Origin: Sphingorhabdus sp. M41
Lineage (GTDB): Bacteria > Pseudomonadota > Alphaproteobacteria > Sphingomonadales > Sphingomonadaceae
Reading direction: 5' to 3'
Length of the DNA: 64,000 nt
Assembly (NCBI RefSeq): GCF_001586275.1
Contig: NZ_CP014545.1
Span: forward strand, 1-64,000
The translations under genes were made by a program, and so were the position numbers. Below the pieces are notes generated by a model. That model made no database searches. It was not told the DNA's origin and saw nothing but the letters and a program-made list of their open reading frames with translations. This document shows, in pieces, positions 1 to 47,488 of this stretch; position 1 is the first letter of the stretch, and every line of letters begins with the position of its first letter.

Positions 1-783
1 TCAGGCAGCCGCCTTTCGATCGGGCAAACGCCCGATCAGCTCGCGGGCGAGATCGATATAGGCAACGGAACCGCTGCAACGATAATCGTAGATCAGGGCG
101 GGAAGACCATGGCTGGGCGCTTCCGACAGCCGGACATTACGCGGGATCACGGTTTCAAACACTACGTCCCCGAGACAAGCCCTTACATCATCGGACACTT
201 GTTCGGTCAACTTGTTGCGACGATCATACATGGTCAGAACCACACCCATCACCGACAGCTGACGATTGAAGCGAGCGCGGATACGCTCCACCGTCTGGAG
301 CAACTGGCTCAATCCCTCGAGCGCGAAAAATTCGCACTGCAGCGGGACCAGCAAGGATTCGACAGCAACCATGGCGTTCAGGGTGAGCAGGCCGAGTGAT
401 GGTGGACAGTCGATGAGAATGATATCCCAGCGCCCATTGTCCGCCGCATCGAGAGCTTTTTTAAGCCGGTGGGTCCGCTCTTCAAATTCTACCAGTTCCA
501 CTTCGGCGCCGGAGAGATCAACGGTAGCGGGAACAATCTCTAGTCCCGGTACCTTTGTTTCGTTGATGCAGTCGGCCAGCGACACGTCATTGATCAACAG
601 GTCATAGCTGCTGTTGACGCGATCGCCCTGCGCCAGGCCGAGGCCGGTCGAAGCATTGCCCTGCGGGTCCAGATCTATCAACAGGACTTTCCAGCCGCTG
701 GCGGCCAGTGCGGTGGCCATATTGATTGCAGTGGTGGTTTTGCCCACGCCGCCTTTTTGATTGGCTATTGCTATACGAACCAT
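1..783 (-). CDS. parA: Chromosome-partitioning ATPase ParA (Soj)
   Basis: A 260-residue ParA/MinD-family ATPase that works with ParB at parS sites to segregate newly replicated origins. The deviant Walker A motif KGGVGKTT lies at residues 10-17, followed by LLIDLDPQGN and later by the Walker B-type segment ILIDCPPSLG. Length is normal for chromosomal ParA. The stop codon is at the very edge of the window, so a parB downstream would lie just outside. It is followed upstream by rsmG, mnmG and mnmE on the same strand, the classical origin-proximal cluster, and three parS sites lie within 3.4 kb, which favours the chromosomal rather than a plasmid ParA. Confidence 0.97.
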   Translation of the reverse strand: MVRIAIANQKGGVGKTTTAINMATALAASGWKVLLIDLDPQGNASTGLGLAQGDRVNSSYDLLINDVSLADCINETKVPGLEIVPATVDLSGAEVELVEFEERTHRLKKALDAADNGRWDIILIDCPPSLGLLTLNAMVAVESLLVPLQCEFFALEGLSQLLQTVERIRARFNRQLSVMGVVLTMYDRRNKLTEQVSDDVRACLGDVVFETVIPRNVRLSEAPSHGLPALIYDYRCSGSVAYIDLARELIGRLPDRKAAA

Positions 784-3348: not shown

Positions 3349-3364
3349 TGTTCCACGTGGAACA
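3349..3364. promoter_or_regulatory. parS: parS site (intergenic mnmG/mnmE)
   Basis: TGTTCCACGTGGAACA is a perfect palindrome that keeps the CACGTG core and the TGTT/AACA arms. It lies in the 74-bp gap between mnmE and mnmG and touches the mnmE stop codon. This is the third site in 2.5 kb. Confidence 0.87.
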
Positions 3365-9152: not shown

Positions 9153-9596
9153 TCAAAATGGTTTTATGATCACCAGAATGATGATGATGGCAGCTGCAAT
9201 ACCAGGCACTTCATTGGCCAGCCGCAAGGCTTTATCGCTCATCCTCCGCTCGCCCCTCGCCAGCTTTTTGCCATAGCTGATCATCCAGCCGTGATAGCCT
9301 GACAGCGCCAGCACCATCAGCAATTTGGCGTGAAACCAGCCCTGGCTGAACGCGCCGATATTATAGGCAAGCGCCAATCCGATAACCCAGACGATGATCA
9401 GCGACGGATTGAGGATGATCTTGCGAAGCTTGCCCTCGCGTTCAATCCATTTCCCGTCTTCTTCCGAACCGATCGCAGTTTCCTGATGATAGACGAAGAA
9501 ACGCGGCATCATGAACAGGCCCGCCATCCAGAAGATGACGAAGATAAGATGAGCCGATTTTAACCAGAGATAGAGCATGGACAGAATTTCATTCAT
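9153..9596 (-). CDS. hemJ: Protoporphyrinogen IX oxidase HemJ
   Basis: A 147-residue membrane protein of the HemJ (UPF0093, formerly CopD-like) family, the oxygen-independent route from protoporphyrinogen IX to protoporphyrin IX. Four membrane segments are visible, with conserved His16 (SAHLIFVIFWMAG) and Lys91 (FHAKLLM). It overlaps hemE by 4 bp, consistent with a small haem operon. Confidence 0.94.
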   Translation of the reverse strand: MNEILSMLYLWLKSAHLIFVIFWMAGLFMMPRFFVYHQETAIGSEEDGKWIEREGKLRKIILNPSLIIVWVIGLALAYNIGAFSQGWFHAKLLMVLALSGYHGWMISYGKKLARGERRMSDKALRLANEVPGIAAAIIIILVIIKPF

Positions 9597-10645
9597 TGCC
9601 TGACAAGTGTAAGCAGCTTTTCAACATGTTCAATGGGCGTGTCGGGTAAAATCCCGTGACCCAGATTGAAAATATGCGGGCGATCTTCAAAAACCTGCAG
9701 GATATGGCGTACCGAGGTCTCCAGTGCTTCGCCGCCGGTTATCAGCGCAAGCGGATCGAGATTACCTTGCAACGGCAGATTTTTCGGCAGATTTTCATGC
9801 GCCCAGACCGGGTCAACCGTCTCATCCAGACCGATGGCGCTGGCTCCGGTCTCATTCGCATAAGCGACCAGTTTGGCGCCTGCCCCCTTGGGAAAACCGA
9901 TGATCGGCAGATCGGGATGGACCGCCTTCAACCGCGCTATGATTTCCGCATTGGGCGCAATCACCCATTTTTCAAATTGGGCGGGCGACAGTGATCCCGC
10001 CCAGCTGTCGAAAAGCTGCACCGCATCAACACCCGCTTCGATCTGACCGAGCAAATAAGTAACCGTGTTCTCGACAATCGCGTTGATCAGTTCGCCAAAG
10101 GCGGCTTCATCGCGATAGGCAAAGCGGCGGGTCGCTGCCTGGTCCTTGCTGCCCTGTCCGTTGACCATATAAGTCGCGATCGTCCACGGACTTCCTGCAA
10201 AGCCCATGAAGGTCGTTTGATCATCGAGCCGTGCGGCTACTGCTCGAACCGTTGCATATATGGCCTCAAAATGCTCGGGAGCAGCCTCCAGAGAGCCCAA
10301 AGCCGCATCCAGCAACCTGGGTGCCAGCCGGGGTCCTTCGCCTGCCTCAAACCAGAGCTTCTGGCCCATCGCATGCGGCACGATCAATATGTCGGAAAAC
10401 AGGATCGCACCGTCAAAACCAAAACGCTTGATTGGCTGCAAGGTGACCTCGGCCGCAGCCTCGGCATCATAGCAAAGTTCGAGAAACCCGCCTTTTTGTG
10501 CGCGCAGTTCCCGGTATTCCGGCAAATAGCGGCCTGCTTGACGCATCAACCAGACCGGCGTTTGATCGGTTTTCTTGCCGAGCAATGTCTGCAGGAGAAT
10601 TTTCCGTGATTCATTTCCATTCGGCATAGCGAGACGGTTACCCAT
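9593..10645 (-). CDS. hemE: Uroporphyrinogen decarboxylase HemE
   Basis: A 350-residue cytosolic enzyme that decarboxylates the four acetate side chains of uroporphyrinogen III. The signature PVWLMRQAGRYLPEYR is near residue 30 and GFAGSPWT near 150. The 5' end borders the AT-rich tract of the putative chromosomal origin. The start at 10645 has no clear ribosome-binding site; an internal ATG at 10627 (MPNGNESRK) is a reasonable alternative. Confidence 0.97.
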   Translation of the reverse strand: MGNRLAMPNGNESRKILLQTLLGKKTDQTPVWLMRQAGRYLPEYRELRAQKGGFLELCYDAEAAAEVTLQPIKRFGFDGAILFSDILIVPHAMGQKLWFEAGEGPRLAPRLLDAALGSLEAAPEHFEAIYATVRAVAARLDDQTTFMGFAGSPWTIATYMVNGQGSKDQAATRRFAYRDEAAFGELINAIVENTVTYLLGQIEAGVDAVQLFDSWAGSLSPAQFEKWVIAPNAEIIARLKAVHPDLPIIGFPKGAGAKLVAYANETGASAIGLDETVDPVWAHENLPKNLPLQGNLDPLALITGGEALETSVRHILQVFEDRPHIFNLGHGILPDTPIEHVEKLLTLVRQ

Positions 10646-10785
10646 TATATTATCTTATATATTATATTAGATTGTTGTTGATGATAGAGCGTGGAAAAGG
10701 CGGTAACCTGCCAGCGCCGTAAATACAAACAGATTGACAGGGGGCAGTAAACGAAGATTTGACCGATTCCAAAATTCGTTCCCCG

Positions 10786-10794
10786 TTATCCACA
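10786..10794 (+). promoter_or_regulatory. DnaA box
   Basis: TTATCCACA is an exact match to the high-affinity DnaA box and lies in the middle of the putative origin. Confidence 0.8.
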
Positions 10795-10827
10795 GACTGT
10801 TGATGGAATCGATCAATGTTGGTTGGC

Positions 10828-10836
10828 TGTGGATGA
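10828..10836 (-). promoter_or_regulatory. DnaA box, one mismatch
   Basis: On the minus strand this reads TCATCCACA, one change from TTATCCACA. It lies between the two perfect boxes. Confidence 0.6.
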
Positions 10837-10872
10837 ATTTGCGGGAGTCGGGGAAGAATATCGAGGGACAGG

Positions 10873-10881
10873 TTATCCACA
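10873..10881 (+). promoter_or_regulatory. DnaA box
   Basis: A second exact TTATCCACA in the same orientation as the first and 87 bp from it, close to the ppsR start. Confidence 0.8.
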
Positions 10882-10927
10882 CTTTCATCCCTTGCTTTAT
10901 CCCCTTTGAAATCACAAAGCTTAGCGG

Positions 10928-11773
10928 ATGAAACGGCTCCACCTTCATCTGCTCTCGGATTCAACCGGTGAGACCCTGGAAAACATTGCCAAAGCGGCAC
11001 TCGCTCAATTTGACGGCGTGGAGATCATCAAGCATTTCTGGCCTATGGTCCGCTCGGAGAAGCATCTCAACCGGATATTGGCTGAAGTGGCCGATAATCC
11101 CGGGCTGGTCATATTCACTATCGTCAACCGCGATATCAGAGCAAAATTGGAACGCGAATGTCGGCATCTCGGGCTGCCGTCAGTTCCTGCGCTCGATACC
11201 GTGACCGATGCCTTGTCCAATATGCTGGGGCAGGAAGCCAAGGCCAGACCGGGTCGTCAACATATTCTCGATGCGGCCTATTTCGCCAGGGTAGAGGCGA
11301 TTCAATTCACCATCGCCCATGATGACGGTGTCGGCTGGGAGAATTGGGAAGAAGCTGATATTGTGCTTGCCGGCGTGTCGCGAACTTCGAAAACACCAAC
11401 CTCCATCTATCTCGCCAATCGCGGCTACAAGACTGCGAATATTCCGATCGTCCCGGAATCACCACCACCCGATTCACTCTTTCATCTAAAGAACCCTCTG
11501 GTAGTCGGTCTGATCACCGGCGCTTCCAGGCTTGTGCAGGTCAGACGCAACCGTTTGCTGTCGCTGAACCAGGCGCCAGAAACTGACTATGTGAATGAAG
11601 AGAAGGTCAAGGCCGAGACGCAATATGCCCGCCGGATGTTCGCCGACAACGGCTGGCCGATGATTGATGTGACACGGCGCTCGATCGAGGAATCCGCTGC
11701 GGCAATCATCAATCTCTATAATGAGAGACATGTCGGTACCGGCGATGATCACAAGGCTGATGGTGATGTCTGA
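10928..11773 (+). CDS. ppsR: PEP synthase / PPDK regulatory protein (kinase-pyrophosphorylase, DUF299)
   Basis: A 281-residue bifunctional regulator that inactivates phosphoenolpyruvate synthase or pyruvate phosphate dikinase by ADP-dependent phosphorylation and reactivates it by phosphorolysis. The N-terminal LHLLSDSTGETLENIAKAAL and the P-loop-like GVSRTSKTPTSIYLANRG (about residues 150-167) are diagnostic. It is the first gene right of the putative origin, matching the Caulobacter hemE-origin-DUF299 layout. It overlaps maf by 8 bp. Confidence 0.95.
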   Translation: MKRLHLHLLSDSTGETLENIAKAALAQFDGVEIIKHFWPMVRSEKHLNRILAEVADNPGLVIFTIVNRDIRAKLERECRHLGLPSVPALDTVTDALSNMLGQEAKARPGRQHILDAAYFARVEAIQFTIAHDDGVGWENWEEADIVLAGVSRTSKTPTSIYLANRGYKTANIPIVPESPPPDSLFHLKNPLVVGLITGASRLVQVRRNRLLSLNQAPETDYVNEEKVKAETQYARRMFADNGWPMIDVTRRSIEESAAAIINLYNERHVGTGDDHKADGDV

Positions 11774-15743: not shown

Positions 15744-16223
15744 ATGACAGGTGAAGCTGACAATGAAGAAGAACATGGCGGTGCCCAGGGACATTTCCGG
15801 GCGCTGGAACGGCTTTATGCGGAAGCACCGATAAACCGCCTGTTCAATTCCCGTCTCGAAATCGTGGAAGCCGGCAAAGCCAGCATATTTTTTGATGTGG
15901 ATGAACGCTATTATCACGCTGCCGGTGCGGTGCACGGGACGGCCTATTTCAAAATGCTCGACGACGCCGCTTTTTATGCTGCCAACAGTCTGGTGTCTGA
16001 CCGGTTCATCCTGACCACTGCTTTCAATCTGCTCTTCACCAAGCCGCTCAAGTCGGGTCCGGTCATTGCCGAAGGCCGATGGGTTAGTGGTAAACGGCGA
16101 GTTTTCGTTGCCGATTCTCGGCTGATCGACAGCGAGGGTGAAGAAATAGCGCGTGGTACCGGAACTTTCATGCGCTCGCACATCCCGCTGGCATCGCTGC
16201 CCGGCTATAAAAAAGATGATTGA
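15744..16223 (+). CDS. PaaI family hotdog thioesterase
   Basis: A 159-residue hotdog-fold protein. The active-site region HAAGAVHGTAYFKMLDDAAF and the strand TTAFNLLFTKPL are typical of PaaI/4HBT thioesterases, which hydrolyse acyl- or aryl-CoA esters. It starts 9 bp after ptsN and overlaps the next gene by 8 bp, so it probably belongs to the same transcript. Substrate cannot be assigned. Confidence 0.87.
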   Translation: MTGEADNEEEHGGAQGHFRALERLYAEAPINRLFNSRLEIVEAGKASIFFDVDERYYHAAGAVHGTAYFKMLDDAAFYAANSLVSDRFILTTAFNLLFTKPLKSGPVIAEGRWVSGKRRVFVADSRLIDSEGEEIARGTGTFMRSHIPLASLPGYKKDD

Positions 16224-16554
16224 ACCGCGGCTTTCCGCGGAAATGAAGGTCAAAACCCTTCTCAGACTGGTGAATCAGAATGGTGGCTTCGGAGTCGTTC
16301 TGAAAAAGGGCGACAGAATATCCGGATCGATCCTCATCCAATGTGTGGAAAAGGGGGAGAACCCTAGGCTCCTGGAGAATATGCCGTCGCTGGATGGTGA
16401 GCCCAACTGGCAGCAGATATGGCCACAAGCCACTGATAATAATAAGAAAATATCAGATTATGTTGCACAAAGATTCCGTTTTGACCCCGATATGTGGTTA
16501 ATTGAACTGGACATCCCGGATGCGGAACGGCTCATCGCCCAAATGGGTCAGTAA
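16216..16554 (+). CDS. DUF1491 family protein
   Basis: A 112-residue conserved alphaproteobacterial protein. It starts MIEPRLSAEMKVKTLLRL and contains GVVLKKGDRISGSILIQ and the C-terminal WLIELDIPDAERL, the pattern of DUF1491. The start overlaps the thioesterase stop by 8 bp. Function is unknown; no signal peptide or membrane segment is seen. Confidence 0.85.
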   Translation: MIEPRLSAEMKVKTLLRLVNQNGGFGVVLKKGDRISGSILIQCVEKGENPRLLENMPSLDGEPNWQQIWPQATDNNKKISDYVAQRFRFDPDMWLIELDIPDAERLIAQMGQ

Positions 16555-46584: not shown

Positions 46585-47488
46585 TCGCGCGGCGCGCCGC
46601 TTCGTCCGCCATCGTCATCATCGACCGTGCATGGCGCAGGGCCACCGCATGATGGTCATGGCCATAACCACCGCCTAGCGCGCTGGCGACGGCAATACCG
46701 CGGTCACGGGCCTTGCGGATGACCATCCGGTCGCGCTGTTCGAGTCCTGCATCGGTGAGCGCCAGCCGGCCGAGCCGGTCGTCGGCATGCGGGTCGACCC
46801 CCGCCTGATAGAGCAGCATATCCGGTGCAAAGCGCCCGAGAATGTCATCCAGCGCGTCATCCAGTATCGCGAGATAGGCCTCGTCTTCCATCGCATCGGG
46901 CAGCGCAATATCACGGCTCGAACGCGCCTTTCTGGTCGGGAAATTGCGTTCATTATGGATCGACAGGGTGAAAACATCCTCGCGCCCGGCCAGCAATACG
47001 GCGGTGCCGTCGCCCTGATGCACGTCGAGATCGACAATGAGAATCTTGCGCGCGTCGCCTTCCGCCAGTAGCCGGTTGGCGGCGATGGCCAGATCGTTGA
47101 ACACGCAATAGCCGGCGCCGGTATCCGCCAGGGCATGATGGCTGCCCCCGGCGCTGTTCGCCGCATAGCCATGTTGCAGGGCTAGCCGCGCCGCCAGCCA
47201 GGTGCCGCCCGACGTATATTGGACACGGCTGGCGATCTCCGCCGATACCGGAAAGCCGATCCGGCGTTCTATTTCACGTGGAACAGTCCCGGTCAGCACT
47301 TGCTCGACATAGTCGGGGTCATGTACCGCCTCGATCCACTGGCGCTCCATCAGAGGCGGCTGATGGGCCTGATGCAGCGGCTCATGGATCCGGATCGCCT
47401 CCATCACCAGCTGATATTTGTCGAAGACAAAGCTGCCGCTGGCCGGGCGCGGCGCCACATAATCGGGATGGTGGACGATATGGAGCAT
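46574..47488 (-). CDS. Histone-deacetylase-like (class II / acetylpolyamine amidohydrolase) family protein
   Basis: A 304-residue zinc hydrolase of the arginase/HDAC fold. Active-site segments are GGSHHALADTGAGYCVFND and LIVDLDVHQGDGT (metal ligands Asp and His), with a catalytic tyrosine likely near GGYGHDH. In bacteria such enzymes deacetylate polyamines, acetoin-related substrates or proteins. A parS-like palindrome lies inside the gene at 47270-47285. Confidence 0.9.
   Translation of the reverse strand: MLHIVHHPDYVAPRPASGSFVFDKYQLVMEAIRIHEPLHQAHQPPLMERQWIEAVHDPDYVEQVLTGTVPREIERRIGFPVSAEIASRVQYTSGGTWLAARLALQHGYAANSAGGSHHALADTGAGYCVFNDLAIAANRLLAEGDARKILIVDLDVHQGDGTAVLLAGREDVFTLSIHNERNFPTRKARSSRDIALPDAMEDEAYLAILDDALDDILGRFAPDMLLYQAGVDPHADDRLGRLALTDAGLEQRDRMVIRKARDRGIAVASALGGGYGHDHHAVALRHARSMMTMADEAARRATIR
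47270..47285. promoter_or_regulatory. parS-like palindrome inside the deacetylase gene
   Basis: TATTTCACGTGGAACA keeps the CACGTG core and differs from the TGTTNCACGTGNAACA pattern at one position. It is about 44 kb from the parS cluster. It may be a weak ParB site or chance. Confidence 0.4.

Follow-up and report, generated by a model that had tools for sequence, protein, structure and literature searches.

The analysed window comprises the first 64 kb of the 3,339,521-bp single contig of Sphingorhabdus sp. M41 and contains, at 10646-10927, a 282-bp gap between two divergent genes. To its left lies hemE, encoding uroporphyrinogen decarboxylase (9593-10645, minus strand; PF01208, URO-D, E 1.7e-115), whose true start may fall a few codons inside the called frame; to its right lies ppsR, also DUF299 or COG1806 (10928-11773, plus strand; PF03618, Kinase-PPPase/DUF299, E 3.8e-93). 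The Pfam matches on both sides agree with the divergent pair named in an earlier note on this DNA, which had placed the chromosomal origin here. Genes further left include UPF0093, rho, TerC, mnmE, mnmG, rsmG and parA, among others, and those to the right are maf, aroE, coaE and an RNase T-type exonuclease gene, probably dnaQ. Scans of the 64-kb window for tRNA genes and Rfam families returned no matches.

The hemE side of the gap carries an A/T tract (10644-10673), a probable duplex unwinding element located by an A/T-count scan. Within the 1,179,523 bases scanned it is the sole place with at least 27 A/T in 29, making the near-pure tract recognised earlier unique in 1.18 Mb. A TTG/ATG trinucleotide run, TTGTTGTTGATGATAG (10672-10687, plus strand), occupies the position where DnaA-trios would sit and is followed by a degenerate DnaA box with two mismatches, CGTGGAAAA (10690-10698, minus strand), which adjoins the unwinding region and in some relatives has a form nearer TGTGGATAA. 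Further in lies a conserved element, ACAAACAGATTGACA (10725-10739, plus strand), whose commoner form in the family is TTGCCAACAGCTTGAC; a scan of 1.18 Mb of the genome found the ACAAACAGATTGACA string at this one place. Three GANTC sites (10765-10769, 10806-10810 and 10845-10849), the number the earlier note gave, were recovered by pattern scan; the leftmost begins 21 nt ahead of the exact DnaA box at 10786.

Two exact DnaA boxes, TTATCCACA, are present on the plus strand at 10786-10794 and 10873-10881, as had been described. Of the two one-mismatch boxes described with them, one stands: TCATCCACA on the minus strand at 10828-10836, found by a mismatch scan against TTATCCACA. The other, TTATCCCCT at 10897, differs from TTATCCACA at two positions and is one of several two-mismatch boxes in the gap. 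A degenerate inverted partner box, TGTTGATGG (10798-10806, minus strand), was read from the genus alignment and is TGTGGAT-type in most genus relatives. The weak DnaA-like box at 10897 is embedded in a block, TTCATCCCTTGCTTTATCC (10884-10905, plus strand), that shows no variation across the genus alignment, has a single copy in 1.18 Mb of the genome and could serve as a weak DnaA site or as the ppsR promoter.

Genome-wide, exact TTATCCACA boxes number 11 and matches to the reversed control pattern 14. Little can therefore be read from single boxes; a close pair does count, and the pair in the gap is the only one less than 100 bp apart. Scoring with up to one mismatch, applied to 1,179,523 bases (35% of the genome; the other 65% was covered by exact patterns alone), ranks the gap as the top 300-bp window for DnaA boxes, with a score of 10 against 4 for the next. 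The looser pattern TTWTNCACA, with six matches in the 64-kb window against 2.6 expected, is weak evidence on its own. A second, weaker spot with two one-mismatch boxes lies about 5.5 kb right of the origin, at 16204-16503. At least three GANTC sites occur in 2.8% of 4118 tiles of 284 bp, and the window as a whole contains fewer GANTC sites than its shuffles (169 versus 316).

The same arrangement recurs in relatives. The comparison used the best 80 of 287 ppsR relatives in the genome collection, and in 79 of these 80 named loci a divergent hemE lies 250-940 bp from ppsR, mostly across gaps of 250-331 bp; in the remaining locus (L122) hemE was not found within the fetched 10 kb. Together with the DnaA-box score, this shared layout points to the 282-bp intergenic region as oriC. 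The 80 gaps, among them that of the window and several from near-identical genomes, divide into 23 from the genus, the window counted, and 57 from elsewhere. Aligning the 23 genus gaps reveals a common A/T-rich tract, a TTGTTGTTGATGATAG-like run, a near-constant ACAAACAGATTGACA, the string CGATTC, DnaA boxes and the invariant TTCATCCCTTGCTTTATCC. By eye, runs resembling TTGTTGTTGATGATAG extend throughout the genus and appear as GATGATGAAAGATGATG in some other genera.

Two of the gaps are enlarged, L082 to 940 bp and L138 to 501 bp, perhaps by insertions beside the origin or through misjudged gene ends. A wider search for ppsR alone found it in 189 of 199 family genomes. The 10 with no match at E<=0.001 include a congener (G145) and all sampled members of genera g21, g22 and g74, whose genomes measure 2.1-2.5 Mb; in these 10 this boundary gene may have been lost or missed.

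A region between divergent genes could also be a shared hemE/ppsR promoter region holding DnaA boxes by chance, a reading we consider extremely improbable. Both genes need promoters, and TTGACA at 10734, as read from the sequence, resembles a -35 box; a promoter at TTGACA was nonetheless rejected, the -10 box not being kept outside the genus when compared by eye. Against chance boxes, YATCCAC cores average 2.11 per gap across the 80 gaps versus 0.08 in shuffles, spacings within the gaps are fixed, and the strands are asymmetric in composition around the gap. Counting against the origin reading, the window's gap has only two exact DnaA boxes; at least one is present in 44 of the 80 gaps and none in 36.

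The chromosomal surroundings include a partition cluster. Three matches to TGTTNCACGTGNAACA occur in the whole genome, and the reversed control has none: a parS with one mismatch to the consensus (858-873), an exact parS (1370-1385) and a symmetrical one with two mismatches (3349-3364). The cluster lies 7.3-9.8 kb from the gap, in keeping with the 7-10 kb given earlier. The window begins with parA (1-783, minus strand), which parB, an open frame at 3338569-3339519, adjoins across the contig end; because parA and parB meet across the contig ends, the chromosome is probably circular. A further parS-like site with two mismatches lies outside the cluster at 47270-47285, 36 kb right of the gap. Nearly opposite the gap, at 1,700,993, is a single match with three mismatches to what we take to be the dif pattern.

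Sampled in 20-kb pieces, GC skew is predominantly positive between 100 kb and 1.7 Mb (one negative sample) and predominantly negative between 1.77 and 3.3 Mb (one zero, one slightly positive), changing sign near the contig start and near 1.74 Mb. The cumulative maximum falls at 1.74 Mb (within 1.665-1.789 Mb). These two skew arms, the near-opposite dif-like match and the close parS sites uphold the placement of the window at the chromosomal origin. The family behaves similarly: in nine one-contig genomes, hand-picked because enough sequence flanks the locus on either side, the left-hand samples (-400, -200 and -60 kb) have negative skew in 8/9, 8/9 and 8/9 and the right-hand samples (+60, +200 and +400 kb) positive skew in 7/9, 7/9 and 6/9, giving the expected sign at 44 of 54 places and the wrong one at 10.

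At finer scale, the GC-skew check that the earlier note had proposed came out in part: the local sign change is there, at 10-12 kb, whereas cumulative skew reaches its lowest point at 57.8 kb and the fit prefers about 60 kb. The cumulative curve, computed from 35% of the letters so that its minimum is local to the window and not that of a whole-chromosome curve, falls to the gap, climbs for about 10 kb and drops again to the minimum 47 kb right of the gap. A strand-corrected fit over 879 mechanically predicted genes is optimal at 50-60 kb for fourfold sites and at 60 or 90 kb for all positions; at 10 kb it is worse by 10.0 and 9.5 log units, respectively, values inflated by the assumption that genes are independent of one another. 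Near 1.70-1.75 Mb there are mirror solutions of about the same quality, and as the fit alone cannot separate origin from terminus, the rule that the leading strand is G-rich was used to choose between them. The stretch at 20000-58000 has negative skew on the expected right arm; genes at 20-50 kb lie mostly on the minus strand, and correcting for gene strand leaves the offset in place.

An origin near 50-60 kb, with the hemE gap a mere DnaA-regulated divergent promoter, would account for the lowest cumulative skew and for the strand-corrected optimum, and a similar offset exists in a congener (G084). That genome is collinear with the window except for small unaligned stretches and has a similar dip in skew, a minimum at +40 kb and a local dip at ppsR; its collinearity led us to reject a rearrangement private to this genome as the source of the 47-kb offset. 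We nevertheless judge an origin at 50-60 kb very unlikely. In the list of top 300-bp windows, the DnaA-box score at 40-70 kb never exceeds 2, whereas the gap reaches 10; an A/T tract as strong as the one in the gap is also missing there, and the parS cluster is on the far side of the gap. The minimum also moves between relatives: over 220 kb of G067, which has strong skew, it lies 797 bp before ppsR (-0.8 kb), and over 220 kb of G086 it falls on the opposite side, at -49 kb. In both genomes the gap outscores every other window of the 220 kb for DnaA boxes, and parS lies 6-10 kb to its left.

Many bacteria have their origin at dnaA, which here is at 2,961,502, 390 kb from the gap. One exact DnaA box, at 2960740, lies 762 bp before the matched DnaA domain and is perhaps an autoregulatory site of dnaA. 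An origin at 2.96 Mb was rejected and has only the slimmest chance of being correct: the box is alone, with no cluster, skew samples are negative on both sides, and the skew fit there is worse by 47 and 53 log units. According to the parts consulted of a study of Sphingomonas melonis (PMC8116508), moreover, dnaA is not kept near ori in Sphingomonadales.

We conclude that skew sets the origin within some tens of kilobases and that the sequence sets it in the gap. The region at 10646-10927 is, with a probability of about 0.95, oriC, the bidirectional replication start of this chromosome. This assignment draws on features legible in the DNA itself, namely gene layout, clustering of DnaA boxes, the A/T tract, rarity in the genome, conservation and the strand asymmetry of the flanks. 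In the mechanism that we infer from them, DnaA would bind the boxes at 10786, 10828 and 10873 as a platform and extend across weaker boxes in the direction of hemE; the A/T-rich stretch at 10644-10673 would then open and the helicase would be loaded there. Forks would run to a terminus near 1.70-1.74 Mb, and the parABS cluster 7-10 kb away would separate the new origins.

The kind of origin is already known: hemE-linked alphaproteobacterial oriC regions have been predicted before for Sphingomonadaceae. As far as the S. granuli paper was covered, DoriC predicts an origin near hemE for most members of the family (PMC4741004). The predicted oriC of Sphingopyxis and other Sphingomonadaceae (Ori-Finder/DoriC) has in common with the gap its position beside hemE, DnaA boxes, a putative unwinding element and the gene order, and a comparison confined to the main text, the supplementary alignment lying outside it, reveals no difference (PMC4741004). 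The basal unwinding system of DnaA box and DnaA-trios, as described in the portion of its source consulted, likewise has the order box, spacer and trinucleotides beside an A/T tract, but its trios are 3'-GAT-5' and the run here is mainly TTG/ATG (PMC8287927). A hand count on the window sequence gives two 3'-NAN-5' trios next to the degenerate box at 10690, the criterion being at least three within 16 bp; a DnaA-trio-like function of the TTGTTGTTGATGATAG run is put forward as a suggestion from its position.

The earlier note had called the origin Caulobacter-type, which holds for the gene layout and parS distance and fails for the control sites. Caulobacter crescentus Cori, in the sections of two papers that were available (PMC1914354, PMC4468827), likewise lies between hemE and COG1806/DUF299, with an A/T-rich region, several DnaA sites and parS within about 8 kb. 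In the same sources Cori has five CtrA sites and an IHF site, neither consensus of which is in the window's gap, and moderate-affinity G-boxes, where the gap has two perfect DnaA boxes (PMC1914354, PMC4468827). A further difference is the position of dnaA, far from the gap. The gap contains no CtrA site TTAA-N7-TTAA in exact or loose form (TTWW-N7-TTWW) and no match to the IHF consensus WATCAN5WTR. The G-box core TGATCC, in the form we take to be its core, is also absent from the gap.

The genus presents a more varied picture. Exact TTAA-N7-TTAA is present in 8 of the 23 genus gaps, always immediately ahead of CGATTC, compared with 1.4% of shuffles, and the loose form in 18 of 23 compared with 37% of shuffles; outside the genus the exact form appears in one of 57 gaps, at a different place. 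At the alignment position of the congeners' sites, the window has a degenerate CtrA-like TAAA-N7-TTGA (10748-10762, plus strand). By eye, the half-sites are not clearly better conserved than their spacer, in sequences that are related and not independent. CtrA control of the window's own origin was rejected, the sites being present in congeners and degenerate here. WATCAN5WTR has a match in 9 of the 23 genus gaps, compared with 18% of shuffles, and in none of the 57 others, compared with 10%.

The genome encodes CtrA (above the NCBIfam cut-off), GcrA (above the Pfam cut-off, under the NCBIfam one) and a CcrM-like protein that matches its NCBIfam model over nearly full length at 611 bits, under the cut-off of 830. 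A 2015 review, as far as consulted, states that CtrA sites were not seen in origins other than those of Caulobacter and possibly Rickettsia prowazekii (PMC4468827), and the part consulted of an earlier paper predicts such sites in the origins of Wolbachia and other Rickettsiales (PMC1914354). In Sphingomonas melonis, CtrA is reported, in the material covered, to be dispensable for growth yet to influence replication (PMC8116508). Given those predictions and that role, the genus-level CtrA-type site, degenerate in this strain, is a lead and not a first, and as a point we regard it as moderately new.

The most regular feature of the gaps combines the element at 10725 with the first GANTC. An AACAG.TTGAC-like pattern, written from the alignment, matches 62 of the 80 gaps; across 1.18 Mb of this genome it has five matches, one of them in the gap. 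In all 62 matching gaps a GANTC starts 24-26 nt behind the element, and in 58 of the 62 the next box core lies 47-49 nt behind it. Outside the genus the element-GANTC offset is 25 or 26 in 37 of 39 gaps and 24 in the other two. Across those 37 non-genus rows the N of GANTC is T in 20 and G in 17, and the columns just 5' are hardly informative; that GA and TC do not vary in these rows is not evidence, because the rows were chosen so, whereas the 62/62 is. Counted independently of the element, a GANTC starts exactly 21 nt ahead of a forward DnaA-like box (at most two mismatches) in 61 of the 80 gaps, among them 38 of the 57 from other genera, and 20-22 nt ahead in 65 of 80, against 0.7% of shuffles; of the fifteen gaps without the 20-22 nt spacing, eight are from Novosphingobium. 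GANTC averages 2.3 per gap in the genus and 3.6 elsewhere, compared with about 1.2 in shuffles.

Shared descent accounts for part of this conservation, the counts having been made without a tree. Exact strings are rare. One, TTGCCAACAGNTTGAC, is found in 1 of 192 genomes of the class (G086, just before ppsR), a set with only three members of this family, this genome included, and has no exact match in this genome. Another, GANTC-N16-TTATCCACAG, is found in 7 of 147 genomes of the order; this genome has one copy, at 10765, and a TCCCC context accompanies three of the seven (G000, G194 and G453). The conservation therefore rests on degenerate boxes and the loose pattern.

The AACAG.TTGAC element has one mismatch, in its commoner form, to what we presume to be the IHF consensus and two in the form seen here, and is possibly an IHF-type or other bending-protein site. 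If so, the element at 10725 would bind a bending protein such as IHF, and the GANTC between element and box, two helical turns from the box start, would be placed for methylation-dependent binding. We tentatively propose, at odds well short of even, that in many sphingomonad origins an AACAG.TTGAC-like element, a GANTC 24-26 nt on and a DnaA box 21 nt (two helical turns) after the GANTC start act together: the methylation state after fork passage might gate binding of DnaA or of the bending protein and help limit initiation to once per cycle, giving CcrM a SeqA-like role. In Caulobacter, according to the parts consulted of a review, initiation does not require CcrM, yet overexpressing the protein disturbs chromosome content, and CcrM seems to have a part in keeping replication to once per cycle (PMC6090056). 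The literature searched, with partial coverage that leaves out the supplementary alignment of PMC4741004, does not mention a GANTC at a fixed position in the origins of sphingomonads, and we regard the position-locked site as a moderately new point.

Placing the origin in the hemE-ppsR gap anchors gene-dosage and strand analyses of this chromosome, for which the position of dnaA and the raw skew minimum would both mislead. The position-locked GANTC offers a way to ask whether methylation times initiation in bacteria where, in the part of the S. melonis work covered, CtrA is reported dispensable for growth (PMC8116508).
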